From NCBI GenBank assembly GCA_024222295.1, contig JAAEPF010000023.1, positions 248,001 through 312,000 of the forward strand: a stretch of DNA of 64,000 nt, written 5' to 3'. This DNA comes from Actinomycetes bacterium (GTDB lineage Bacteria > Actinomycetota > Acidimicrobiia > Acidimicrobiales > Microtrichaceae). The first letter of the stretch is position 1. Each line of letters begins with the position of its first letter. A program made the position numbers and the translations under genes. The notes under the pieces were generated by a model. The model saw nothing but the letters and a program-made list of their open reading frames with translations, did no database searches and was not told where the DNA came from. Positions 9,292 through 61,486 of this stretch are shown one piece after another.

Positions 9292-10095
9292 CTATTCGGC
9301 GACGGCGACCTCGATGCGGTCCTGGTTCCAAGCCTTGGCGGACTCGAGCGCCTGGTTGGCTGCGTCGAGTAGCTCGGGGCCATCGAACGCGTGGGCGGGG
9401 TAGCAGGCCACTCCCGCCCAGAGCGTGTGATGACCTGATGCACTCACGAGGTTGCGGCGGATCCGCTCGACGGTCCACACCGCACCGTTTTCGGGTGTGT
9501 CCTCGAGGATCACCGCAAACGTGCCATCGCGGAGACGGCAGGCGATGTCGGAGTCGCGCAGGGTGTCGTTGACCGCCTCGGCGACCGTGGCCGGCTCCGC
9601 CTGCAATGGCCCGTCGTCGGGCATCCCCTCTGAAACCTCGAGCACTGCGACCGCGACCGGTCGCAGGTGCCGGCGGGCCGATGCGAGCCTCGAGTCGAGT
9701 GCGACCTTCAGGTAGTCCTCGCTGAACAGGTCGGTCTCGGGGTCGTTCAACGCTGCGCCGTTGAGGCTCGGCCGCGTGTCGGATCCGTCTGCCGCTGCAG
9801 GGTCTAGGAAGGTCATGGGATCGGCCTCGTCGGTGGGACCCGCCGGGGCAGGGTGGCCGCCCCCGCTGCTGCCTGTGGAGAGGTCGACCTCGTCCAACTC
9901 GTGAACCGCAGTTGATGCGGGCTGCATGACGCCGTTGGTGCCGGTCTCGGTGGGAAGCAGGGCCATCAGACCCGCCACGAATCCCACCGCACCTGCGGCC
10001 ATTCCCATGGAAGCGGTATCGCCGATCACCGCCCAGAGCCCGAGCGCCAGGCTCAGGGCGCCGACTATCACCGCCAAGGTCTTCGTGTTCAGCAC
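9292..10095 (-). CDS. Membrane protein with a degenerate GGDEF domain
   Basis: 267 residues from GTG 10093-10095, which has a GGGAG ribosome site 4 nt away; this start is preferred over ATG 10146. Two transmembrane helices occupy roughly residues 4-45, followed by an acidic linker of about 60 residues and a nucleotide-cyclase-like domain. The signature position reads RDGTF instead of GG(D/E)EF (in ACRLRDGTFAVILEDT), so diguanylate cyclase activity is unlikely. The protein could still bind c-di-GMP or serve as a sensor or scaffold. It is convergent with the CoA-transferase gene, and the threonine aldolase gene lies upstream on the same strand. Confidence 0.72.
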   Translation of the reverse strand: MLNTKTLAVIVGALSLALGLWAVIGDTASMGMAAGAVGFVAGLMALLPTETGTNGVMQPASTAVHELDEVDLSTGSSGGGHPAPAGPTDEADPMTFLDPAAADGSDTRPSLNGAALNDPETDLFSEDYLKVALDSRLASARRHLRPVAVAVLEVSEGMPDDGPLQAEPATVAEAVNDTLRDSDIACRLRDGTFAVILEDTPENGAVWTVERIRRNLVSASGHHTLWAGVACYPAHAFDGPELLDAANQALESAKAWNQDRIEVAVAE

Positions 10096-10184
10096 GCAAC
10101 TCCCATCGGCAGAAATGGCCCTCGTCTGAGTGGATTCATGACACAAGGCCGATCCGTATCACCGGCCGGTCCACCAAACCACGC

Positions 10185-11241: not shown

Positions 11242-13221
11242 TCAGCTTCGCTCGGCGAGGGCAAGATCTGCGATCGTGCCCATGATGCGCGTGAGCTCGT
11301 AGTCCTTGGGTGTGAACACCTCGGCCACCCCCAACTCCAACAGCTCCGGGCGGTCCTCCTCGGGGATGATGCCGCCTGCGAACACCGGCGCCTGCACTCC
11401 CTCGGCGCGCAACACCCGCAGCACCTCGGGGATGAGCTCCATGTGCGAGCCGGAGAGGATCGACACGCCGATCACGTCGACGTCTTCGTCGCGCGCCGCT
11501 GCCGCGATCTGCTCGGGCGTCAGCCGGATGCCCTGGTAGATGACCTCGAAGCCGGCGTCTCTTGCTGCCACGGCGACCTGCTCCGCGCCGTTGCTGTGGC
11601 CGTCGAGGCCGGGCTTGGCTATGAGCAGTCGGGGTGGGCCGCCGGGCGATTCCCTGAGTCGCTTCGCGATGCCGGAGAGTCCGTCGTCGGCACCGCGCAC
11701 GCCGACAGCGGCTGCGACGCCTGTGGGTGCGCGGTACTCACCGAAGACCTCACGCAGCAGCCCCGCCCATTCACCGGTGGTGCCGCCCGCGCGGGCGAGT
11801 TCGATGGTGGCGGGCATGATGTTCTCGTCGGTGCGGGCGACCCGCTCGAGTTCGCCGAGTGCAGCCTTCACGGCCTCGCTGTCACGATCGGCGCGCCACT
11901 GCTCCAGCTCGGCAATGGTGTCGGCCTCGACCTGGGGGTCCACCCGCAGGATGTTGTCCTCGCCGCCGAGGGGCGATTCGGCCGTCTCGGTGAACGCGTT
12001 GACGCCGATCACCTGCTGCTCGCCGGTCTCGATGCGGCGCATCCTCTCGGTGTGGGAGCGCACGAGGCGTCCCTTCAGTTCGTCGATGGCCTGGAAAGCA
12101 CCGCCGAGAGCCAGCACCTCGTCAAGTTCGGCCTGCACCGACTCCTCGAGCTCGTCGCACAGCGACTCCATCACGACCGACCCCTCGAACAGGTCGGGGT
12201 ATTCGAGAAGGTCGGTCTCGTTGGCGAGCACCTGCTGGATGCGCAGCGACCACTGCTGGTCCCAGGGGCGTGGGAGCCCGAGTGCCTCGTTCCAGGCGGG
12301 AAGCTGGATCGAGCGGGCCCGGGCGTCGCGCGAGAGCGTGACTCCGAGGGCTTCGAGAACGATGCGCTGGATGTTGTTCTCGGGCTGGGCTTCGGTCAGC
12401 CCGAGGCTGTTGACCTGCACGCCGTAGCGGAAGCGGCGGGCCTTGGGGTCGGTCACCCCGTAGCGCTCCTCGGTGATGCGATCCCACATGCGGGTGAACA
12501 CGCGCATCTTGGCGGTCTCCTCCACGAACCGCATGCCGGAGTTCACGAAGAAGCTGACGGACGCCACGACGCCGGCCATGTTGTCGGGGTCGACCTGGCC
12601 GGAGTCCCGCACGGCGTCGAGCACGCCGATCGCGTTGGCGAGCGAGTAGGCGATCTCCTGGGTGGGGGTCGCGCCGGCTTCCTGCAGGTGGTAGGAGCAC
12701 ACGTTCATCGGGTTCCACCGGGGAACGTGCTCGTTGCAGAACGCGAACATGTCGACGATGAGCCGCCGTGACGCCTCGGGCGGGAAGATGTAGGTGCCGC
12801 GGCTCAGGTACTCCTTGACGATGTCGTTCTGGGTGGTGCCGCGCAGTTCGGTGGACTCGACGCCCTGCTCGGCGGCGTTGGCGACGTAGAGCCCGAGCAG
12901 CCACGCGGCCGGGGCGTTGATCGTCATAGACGTGTTCATCTCGCCGGGCGGGATCCCGTCCAGGAGTGTGCGCATGTGGCCCAGGTGGGCGACGGGTACC
13001 CCGACCTTGCCGACCTCGCCGCGCGCGAGCACGTGGTCGGGGTCGTATCCGGTCTGGGTGGGTAGGTCGAAGGCGATGGAGAGACCGGTCTGCCCCTTGG
13101 CCAGGTTGGTGCGGTACAGCTCGTTGGAGGCCTTGGCCGTGGAATGCCCCGAGTAGGTGCGCATCATCCAGGGCCGGTCTCGCTGCTCGAGGTGTGCGGG
13201 CGACTCGGCGGTGTCCGTCAT
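11242..13221 (-). CDS. B12-dependent acyl-CoA mutase, MeaA/ethylmalonyl-CoA mutase type
   Basis: 659 residues from ATG 13219-13221. The N-terminal TIM-barrel mutase domain begins RDRPWMMRTYSGHSTA and contains GLSIAFDLPTQTGYDPDHV and NPMNVCSYHLQEAGATP. The C-terminal cobalamin domain has the base-off motif DxHxxG (D540, H542, G545), followed by SILSGSH and VFAGGIIP. The length and the motif set are closer to MeaA/ethylmalonyl-CoA mutases than to methylmalonyl-CoA mutases of about 730 residues, but substrate cannot be settled by eye. Either role fits the acyl-CoA carboxylase nearby. A long leader with an attenuator-like structure precedes it. Confidence 0.88.
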   Translation of the reverse strand: MTDTAESPAHLEQRDRPWMMRTYSGHSTAKASNELYRTNLAKGQTGLSIAFDLPTQTGYDPDHVLARGEVGKVGVPVAHLGHMRTLLDGIPPGEMNTSMTINAPAAWLLGLYVANAAEQGVESTELRGTTQNDIVKEYLSRGTYIFPPEASRRLIVDMFAFCNEHVPRWNPMNVCSYHLQEAGATPTQEIAYSLANAIGVLDAVRDSGQVDPDNMAGVVASVSFFVNSGMRFVEETAKMRVFTRMWDRITEERYGVTDPKARRFRYGVQVNSLGLTEAQPENNIQRIVLEALGVTLSRDARARSIQLPAWNEALGLPRPWDQQWSLRIQQVLANETDLLEYPDLFEGSVVMESLCDELEESVQAELDEVLALGGAFQAIDELKGRLVRSHTERMRRIETGEQQVIGVNAFTETAESPLGGEDNILRVDPQVEADTIAELEQWRADRDSEAVKAALGELERVARTDENIMPATIELARAGGTTGEWAGLLREVFGEYRAPTGVAAAVGVRGADDGLSGIAKRLRESPGGPPRLLIAKPGLDGHSNGAEQVAVAARDAGFEVIYQGIRLTPEQIAAAARDEDVDVIGVSILSGSHMELIPEVLRVLRAEGVQAPVFAGGIIPEEDRPELLELGVAEVFTPKDYELTRIMGTIADLALAERS

Positions 13222-13421
13222 GGGCACATTCTGCCTGCTTGGGCGGGCTGAAAACGAAAGAGGCCCCGGCCGGTGGCCGGGGCGATCACAGCAGCGGGGC
13301 GGAGCGAGGGTCACAAGGCGCCAGCACCTGGAGGGCGCTGGTGGCGATGCGTTTGGAGGGAGATTACGTGTCCCTCGCTCCATTGCCCCGGCTGTGTTTC
13401 GGTGGGGGCGAATCCACCGAT
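13222..13421 (-). promoter_or_regulatory. Structured 5' leader of the B12 mutase gene, attenuator-like
   Basis: About 200 nt separate the predicted transcription start (near 13421) from the mutase ATG. The leader can form a perfect 10-bp stem between 13372-13381 and 13301-13310, extended by three more pairs past an A-A mismatch. It encloses an 8-bp hairpin (13321-13328 with 13334-13341). A GC-rich terminator-like hairpin lies at 13263-13283. The segment at 13385-13392 is complementary to the 5' arm of that hairpin (13276-13283), so an antiterminator is possible. I could not find the B12 box or another known riboswitch core. It also accounts for the gene-free stretch here. Confidence 0.5.
13263..13283 (-). 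terminator. Intrinsic-terminator-like hairpin in the mutase leader
   Basis: A perfect 9-bp GC stem (13263-13271 with 13275-13283) with a 3-nt loop. Read on the minus strand it is followed directly by the T-rich run CTCTTTCGTTTT (13251-13262). It lies inside the leader, 40 nt before the mutase start codon, so it would act as an attenuator rather than a gene-end terminator. Confidence 0.55.
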
Positions 13422-13427
13422 GACCTG

Positions 13428-13456
13428 ATTATGGCTACTTACGGTGCAAATGCCAA
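13428..13456 (-). promoter_or_regulatory. Sigma-70-type promoter for the B12 mutase gene
   Basis: On the minus strand TTGGCA (13451-13456) and CATAAT (13428-13433) are separated by exactly 17 nt. They lie in a short AT-rich patch that stands out from the GC-rich surroundings. Initiation is expected near 13421. Confidence 0.6.
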
Positions 13457-13593
13457 CACCCATGGCGCCAAATTTTGTTATTTCATTGCGCCTGCCACTT
13501 TCAGTGACCTGACACGGCCGTCAAGTCTGAGTCGCTCACACTAAGTGACGAGTCGGGTTCAGCTGATGCAACGGGCCCGACCACAATGGAGCC

Positions 13594-13905
13594 ATGATCA
13601 CAGCCGCAACAGGCGCAGGACTGCTCGCCCAGGACGACTTCGAGTTCTTCCTGGGCGAGGACTTCTGGCCCTGGATGATCCTCGCACTCGGCGCGGCGCT
13701 CGTTGTGGGCAACGTGCTTGCACTGGTGCGCCCACCGGCCGATGTACGCGGCGGCTCGGCCGGCAATGCCCGCAAGGCCGGTGACAAGGGGTCAAGGGGT
13801 GGCGGATCGGTGGCCGCCGAGCGCCCACCGCTGGCCCGGAGCGTGGTGCTGATCGTGCTCGGCCTCGCAGCATCCGCCTGGGGTCTTGCCTCGCTGCTCG
13901 CCTGA
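13594..13905 (+). CDS. Small two-helix membrane protein, unknown function
   Basis: 103 residues. One hydrophobic helix covers roughly residues 26-45 (PWMILALGAALVVGNVLAL) and a second lies at the C-terminus (SVVLIVLGLAASAWGLASLL). A basic, Gly/Ser-rich loop of about 35 residues joins them and should face the cytoplasm. I do not recognise the family. It precedes the livG-like ATPase gene by 35 nt on the same strand, and a functional link is only possible, not shown. Confidence 0.6.
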   Translation: MITAATGAGLLAQDDFEFFLGEDFWPWMILALGAALVVGNVLALVRPPADVRGGSAGNARKAGDKGSRGGGSVAAERPPLARSVVLIVLGLAASAWGLASLLA

Positions 13906-24972: not shown

Positions 24973-25043
24973 AGCGGGTGACGGGAATCGAACCCGCGTT
25001 ATCAGCTTGGGAAGCTGAAGTTCTGCCATTGAACTACACCCGC
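24973..25043 (-). tRNA. tRNA-Gly (anticodon CCC)
   Basis: A 71-nt cloverleaf on the minus strand. Acceptor strands GCGGGTG and CACCCGC pair fully, with discriminator T. The D-stem is GTTC/GAAC, the anticodon loop is TTCCCAA and the T-arm contains GGTTCGATTCC. CCA is not encoded. It is the only complete copy of the sequence repeated at 21708, 23246 and 23763. Confidence 0.93.
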
Positions 25044-61213: not shown

Positions 61214-61286
61214 TGGTCGGGACCGGCGTCGATCCGGTGACCTACCGCTTTTCAGGCGGTCGCTCTGCCAACTGAGCTACCCGACC
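61214..61286 (-). tRNA. tRNA-Phe (anticodon GAA)
   Basis: A 73-nt cloverleaf. Acceptor GGTCGGG/CCCGACC, D-arm GCTC/GAGC, anticodon loop CTGAAAA between ACCGC and GCGGT, and T-arm with GGATCGACGCC. Discriminator A, CCA not encoded. Last of three tRNA genes on this strand. Confidence 0.93.
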
Positions 61287-61313
61287 GTGTTGTCCGAACC
61301 CTAGGTTCGGTTG

Positions 61314-61388
61314 CGGTCCCGACGAGATTTGAACTCGCGACCTCCGCCTTGACAGGGCGGCGTGCACTCCAAGCTGCACCACGGGACC
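61314..61388 (-). tRNA. tRNA-Asp (anticodon GTC)
   Basis: A 75-nt cloverleaf with acceptor GGTCCCG/CGGGACC, anticodon loop CTGTCAA between CCGCC and GGCGG, T-arm GAGTTCAAATCTC and discriminator G, an identity element of tRNA-Asp. Encoding a GTC anticodon fits with a gluQ gene in the window, whose product glutamylates queuosine in this tRNA. Confidence 0.94.
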
Positions 61389-61413
61389 AATCCGTGCCAC
61401 CAAAGGGTGGACG

Positions 61414-61486
61414 CACCCCCAACGGGATTCGAACCCGTGTTACCGCCTTGAAAGGGCGGCGTCCTGGGCCGCTGGACGATGGGGGC
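61414..61486 (-). tRNA. tRNA-Glu (anticodon TTC)
   Basis: A 73-nt cloverleaf with acceptor GCCCCCA/TGGGGGT (first pair G-U), anticodon loop CTTTCAA between CCGCC and GGCGG, T-arm GGGTTCGAATCCC and discriminator G. First gene of the tRNA trio when read on the minus strand. Confidence 0.94.

Follow-up and report, generated by a model that had tools for sequence, protein, structure and literature searches.

Introduction

The 6C RNA (Rfam RF01066) is an sRNA with C-rich loops. The RNA presented here is like it in having single-stranded C-rich segments that are able to pair with Shine-Dalgarno sequences and, in some cases, a 3' terminator. The fold is different, however, and there is no Rfam match to the present RNA even at permissive thresholds. 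Small RNAs transcribed with a flagellar-type sigma factor form another group for comparison, for example the sigma-28-dependent UhpU, MotR, FliX and FlgO of E. coli (PMC10578931) and the sigma-28-dependent sRNAs known in C. jejuni (PMC11187230). The present RNA resembles these in being a small RNA under a sigma factor of that type, here predicted from the promoter sequence. The E. coli sRNAs derive from UTRs and are tied to flagella (PMC10578931), whereas the present RNA would have a gene of its own in another phylum.

The third related system is the actinobacterial WhiG regulon with its RsiG-(c-di-GMP)-WhiG switch (PMC8325347). The flagellar promoter consensus that WhiG shares comprises TAAA at -35 and GCCGATAA at -10, and a twin-motif RsiG is reported in three of four Acidimicrobiales species (PMC8325347). 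The present RNA may be linked to this regulon, to judge from its promoter motif, the presence of WhiG and the GGDEF genes near the RNA. The regulon members in the corresponding passages of that article are sporulation genes, pili and c-di-GMP enzymes, with no sRNA among them, whereas the present case is most likely an sRNA. Among the papers listed in searches of the literature on small RNAs and riboswitches of Acidimicrobiia and on WhiG-linked sRNAs, none was seen to describe such an RNA.

A sequence-only reading of the locus had proposed an attenuator-like structured leader in front of a B12-dependent mutase gene, possibly of an undescribed class. Comparison with relatives, in which the RNA is conserved and shows compensatory base changes, upholds one half of this proposal: the structures are real and belong to a conserved RNA that fits no described class. 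The other half, a leader or attenuator of the mutase, was not upheld. We take the RNA to represent a family that is new and not in Rfam but of a familiar type, most likely the sRNA.

Results and discussion

Structure of the locus

The window, i.e. the whole 64,000-nucleotide stretch that was analysed, contains the RNA on its minus strand upstream of the mutase gene (Table 1). The promoter, the 10-bp stem, the inner hairpin and the 9-bp GC hairpin of the sequence-only reading were all found in place on that strand. The promoter is the sole promoter-like match in 12900-13700, a region in which shuffles give 0.1, and the GC hairpin is followed by CTCTTTCGTT. The minimum-energy fold of the 211-nt leader has an energy of -103.9 kcal/mol compared with -75.5 +/- 5.1 for dinucleotide shuffles (z = -5.6), and none of 200 shuffles was as low. 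Both the 10-bp stem and the inner hairpin are part of this fold. The long stem extends further than previously described, and there is an extra 5' hairpin. The segment 13392-13385, earlier assigned the role of an antiterminator, and the 5' arm of the terminator hairpin can form 8 bp in the window; however, in the minimum-energy fold it stays in the long stem and the terminator forms too. A translated small ORF was rejected, as its ATG at 13383 is not conserved and relatives read CAAAGG, CCAAGG or CATAGG.

Table 1 Features of the RNA locus and its flanks in the window.
Feature	Position	Strand	Basis and remarks
RNA promoter	13428-13456	-	TTGGCA-17-CATAAT, at the site of T[AC]AAG-N15..17-CG[AT] (WhiG/flagellar type) in 60/79 RNAs
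Conserved structured RNA, model positions 1-135	13287-13421	-	Covariance model matches; most likely a stand-alone sRNA
Predicted RNA 5' end	near 13421	-	Promoter spacing
5' hairpin, 7 bp, conserved TCGCC in loop	13399-13420	-	Covariation, conservation
Long stem, outer part, 5' strand	13385-13395	-	Pairs with 13300-13288; holds the formerly proposed antiterminator segment
Long stem, 5' strand	13372-13381	-	10 bp with 13310-13301; continues as 13370-13368 with 13314-13312
Conserved unpaired core CTCCCTCCAAACGCATCGCCA, proposed seed	13342-13362	-	Alignment of relatives, conservation
Inner hairpin	13321-13341	-	13341-13334 with 13328-13321; fold and covariation
Long stem, 3' strand	13288-13314	-	Blocks 13314-13312, 13310-13301, 13300-13295, 13292-13288
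Intrinsic terminator	13251-13283	-	9-bp GC hairpin at 13283-13263, then a T-rich tail; taken as sRNA 3' end
AGAATG, -10-like box just 5' of mutase ATG	13227-13232	-	Kept in 20/20 RNA-adjacent mutase genes
B12-dependent acyl-CoA mutase gene, 659 aa	11242-13221	-	MM_CoA_mutase and B12-binding; neighbour, not thought part of the RNA gene
Divergent small membrane-protein gene	13594-13905	+	Most constant RNA neighbour

An Rfam search of the window at gathering level gave nothing except four tRNAs, and in a search of 12900-13700 at E values up to 5 the sole match was a weak one to a promoter family, at 17 bits where the cut-off is 42. The alternative of a diverged cobalamin element was rejected: no cobalamin model matched at either level, and neither the window region nor the RNA of the relatives matches another known riboswitch in Rfam. 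The four tRNA genes are located at 24973-25043 and 61214-61486 on the minus strand, three of them consecutive.

Conservation and distribution

The mutase protein search yielded matches in 58 of 61 related genomes, and the best 30 loci were taken. The motif of the conserved core, used as an anchor, occurs in 21 of these 30, of which 20 were kept for alignment; one locus (L026) was excluded from the first alignment because the anchor match fell within the mutase coding region. In the unfitted MAFFT alignment of the 20 sequences, for which no structure was used, 15 of the 39 pairs have compensatory changes and 88.3% of cells are paired; its covariation score was reached by none of 500 shuffles. 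In alignments fitted to the model, both sides change in 33 of the 39 pairs when 37 rows are used and in 38 when 57 rows are used. These numbers are biased towards structure, and 15/39 is the cleaner count. The covariance check that the sequence-only reading had called for therefore revealed conserved pairing in the homologous leaders, not its absence. Comparison shows a fold under selection for pairing that consists of a 5' hairpin, a long interrupted stem, a large internal loop that contains an invariant core, and an inner hairpin.

In an alignment whose members had not been chosen by the exact core, conservation is highest in the unpaired core, at CUCCCUCC and GCAUCGCC, and in the TCGCC loop of the 5' hairpin. 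Loop and core each contain ATCGCC in 30 of the 79 distinct RNAs, 79 being the number that remained for promoter and terminator counts after identical RNAs among 94 rows were merged. A local alternative hairpin of 5-7 bp between the core and the 5' strand of the stem could in principle form in 37/37 RNAs.

The covariance model built from the 20 relatives detects the RNA in 37 of the 61 related genomes, always as a single copy, and finds none in the other 24. A draw from the class contains the RNA in 22 of 395 genomes and a draw from the phylum in 4 of 396, all four of the same order; none was found outside the order in the latter draw. The strict filters of the 61-genome, class and phylum searches lose weak matches, which makes these absences soft. 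The exact core pattern retrieved 60 stretches from 84,980 species genomes. The 42 with a model match are mostly labelled Acidimicrobiia or actinobacteria, a few being named otherwise (Acidobacteria, Actinomyces), and the 18 without carry other labels, e.g. Phycisphaerales, Burkholderiales and Nocardioides. Candidatus Microthrix (L159) is among the carriers. A core-pattern match on a viral contig was discarded for lack of a model match (L211). Tandem copies, two or three, occur in seven loci (L157, L172, L175, L177, L196, L205, L206), and the majority of these copies each have an upstream promoter-like motif of their own. As judged from these searches, the RNA family is conserved across one group of environmental actinobacteria (Acidimicrobiia).

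Promoter and sigma factor

The motif T[AC]AAG-N15..17-CG[AT] is found 34-39 nt 5' of the 5' hairpin in 60 of the 79 distinct RNAs, compared with 6 of 2940 control windows. All 60 spacers are 16 or 17 nt long, which gives the form TMAAG-N16/17-CGAT/CGTT. The remaining 19 RNAs, including that of the window, are without the WhiG-type motif; the window and the nearest genera have TTGGCA or TTGGAA at the -35 place, and the window's own RNA promoter looks like the sigma-70 type.

A FliA/WhiG homologue scoring at least 212 bits, a cut that was our own choice, is encoded by all 37 RNA carriers but by only 12 of 24 non-carriers (exact P = 1.6e-6). Counted by family, such homologues occur in 10/10 with the RNA versus 9/19 (P = 0.005). 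The WhiG homologue of the window genome, with its N-terminus left off, reaches 333.9 bits against the WhiG model, which has a cut-off of 343. From the promoter sequences and this co-occurrence we infer that the RNA ancestrally belonged to the regulon of a WhiG-type sigma factor. A flagellar role was rejected because FlhA was found in only 9 of the 61 genomes and 6 of the 37 carriers; the 31 carriers that show none also set the RNA apart from the flagellar sigma-28 sRNAs.

The pattern CTCAAG-N12..20-CGATA is not in genome-wide excess, with 64 matches in 11 genomes compared with 62 for the reversed control. Among 30 pattern loci read, those with spacers of 16-18 are more often intergenic by crude ORF calls (12/21) than the others (1/9). 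The window genome encodes a second, divergent FliA/WhiG-like sigma factor (L131, G000:C23:104160-104822), and in five of the 64 genome pattern matches the RNA-type promoter precedes a second sigma gene of this type. Nineteen second-sigma loci were read (among L131 and L133-L150), five of them preselected by the pattern match; the RNA-type promoter is present at 4 of the 14 that were not. These second sigma genes with an RNA-type promoter appear as if autoregulated.

Genomic neighbourhood and alternative readings

In 22 of the 37 carriers the RNA is followed by the mutase gene in the same orientation, with 26-186 nt between the RNA and the mutase start. In the other 15 the two are not adjacent. 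In six of these a same-strand gene begins about 156-233 nt 3' of the RNA; for most of the rest, crude ORF calling gives a convergent gene as the next one. All three tested same-strand genes downstream of the RNA, which come from other genera (L061, L063, L069), encode a GGDEF domain. The window itself has a GGDEF-domain gene at 9292-10146 (-). At another locus (L064, 1592-3604) a gene near the RNA encodes a DnaB that includes an intein-splicing domain.

The proximity of RNA and mutase in the 22 genomes, where some cis effect is possible, is what a riboswitch or attenuator of the mutase would call for, in which a ligand or the ribosome chooses between the long stem and the antiterminator and the hairpin at 13283-13263 acts as terminator. 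In the window and several relatives a terminator does stand between the RNA and the ATG, and in the window the competing pairing of 8 bp is available. Against this, 10 other relatives that have a terminator retain only 3-6 bp of the pairing, the RNA is located elsewhere in 15 genomes, no riboswitch of Rfam matches, and in one genome (G003) the mutase adjoins the same small gene as in the window yet no match to the RNA model is found. Moreover, the box A[GC]A[AC]T[GA] is positioned 4-7 nt before the start codon, i.e. between the RNA and the ATG, in 20/20 RNA-adjacent mutase loci, and in 3/10 mutase loci without the RNA. A -10 box just before the start codon is the promoter layout for leaderless mRNA, which is established for actinobacteria. 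Because of this conserved -10-like box, a separate transcript is predicted for the mutase, which probably has its own, leaderless mRNA; such a predicted start close to the ATG corresponds to the second outcome that the sequence-only reading had named as speaking against a leader. A similar -10-like box is seen at the small membrane-protein gene of the window. A strict terminator follows 12 of 78 RNAs, compared with 1% of shuffles; elsewhere the 3' end must form otherwise. Given the changing gene context, the unconserved antiterminator and the box before the mutase, the terminator at 13283-13263 is best understood as marking where the RNA gene ends. A leader reading is not supported by these comparisons, which do not point to a switch or attenuator for the mutase, and we regard a cis-acting role of this sort as unlikely; no link between the RNA and B12 was found.

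The most constant neighbour of the RNA is the small membrane-protein gene, which is divergent and at most 300 nt away in 49 of the 69 loci whose flanks are long enough, as would be expected if the two formed one functional unit in which the RNA regulates the gene or a regulatory region is shared. However, the gene occurs in 50 of the 61 genomes, 13 of which are without the RNA, and is thus older or wider than the RNA. There is no antisense overlap, and complementarity of the RNA core to the gene is not notable (mean z 0.4 in 63 loci), which leaves such a unit improbable. The gene product has no Pfam or NCBIfam match. The size and long interrupted stem of the RNA also fit, loosely, a 6S-like RNA that binds RNA polymerase by mimicking an open promoter, in genomes without a recognizable 6S RNA. 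Rfam 6S was detected in only one of the 61 genomes (L212, G023:C191:1701-1881), a 76% complete assembly in which the match may be a contaminant, and a 6S-like RNA of actinobacteria has been described (PMC8539372). Nonetheless, the RNA does not match 6S RNA (RF00013), permissive thresholds included, or any other family, and it is absent from 24 of the 61 relatives. Conservation is concentrated in the C-rich core, which is unpaired, and in the loop of the 5' hairpin, unlike the usual plan of 6S RNA. An RNA of the 6S kind is accordingly very improbable.

Proposed function

A stand-alone sRNA gene of ~135-170 nt is the likely identity of this locus, with its own promoter, in most lineages probably for a WhiG/FliA-type sigma factor, with a product that may act in trans, and with the mutase as a neighbour. 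The RNA is present as a single copy in most genomes and in tandem in some. In most lineages it would be transcribed by RNA polymerase with a sigma factor of the WhiG/FliA type (sigma-28 family); in the lineage of the window the -35 element seems to have become TTGGCA, so the housekeeping sigma factor may now serve. In the window and close relatives the RNA would end at the intrinsic terminator, and the downstream mutase would use its own promoter, probably leaderless.

The complementarity of CUCCCUCC to Shine-Dalgarno sequences and the conserved C-rich core and loop are suggestive of an RNA that acts in trans by means of exposed C-rich seeds. It might pair in trans, a weaker part of the proposal, through CUCCCUCC, which is anti-Shine-Dalgarno-like, and AUCGCC segments held single-stranded by the stems. 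One seed pattern gave 34 matches, and the 30 of these loci that were read include no recurrent target; pairing with the mutase start is not notable (mean z 0.6 in 21 loci). The RNA may act through protein binding.

More tentatively, the sRNA family might relay WhiG-type sigma factor output, which c-di-GMP may control via RsiG, to post-transcriptional regulation in mostly non-flagellated actinobacteria, by means of two exposed AUCGCC-type motifs and the anti-Shine-Dalgarno core. A B12-enzyme riboswitch is what this stretch would otherwise be annotated as, a likely error that is corrected here. The result is a covarying, conserved RNA family that is missing from Rfam, in a bacterial class without an sRNA study in the literature searched. 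If the promoter reading is true, sRNA control of the sigma-28 type would extend from flagella to the WhiG regulon, and the RNA would provide a testable output of WhiG in bacteria that are mostly without flagella.
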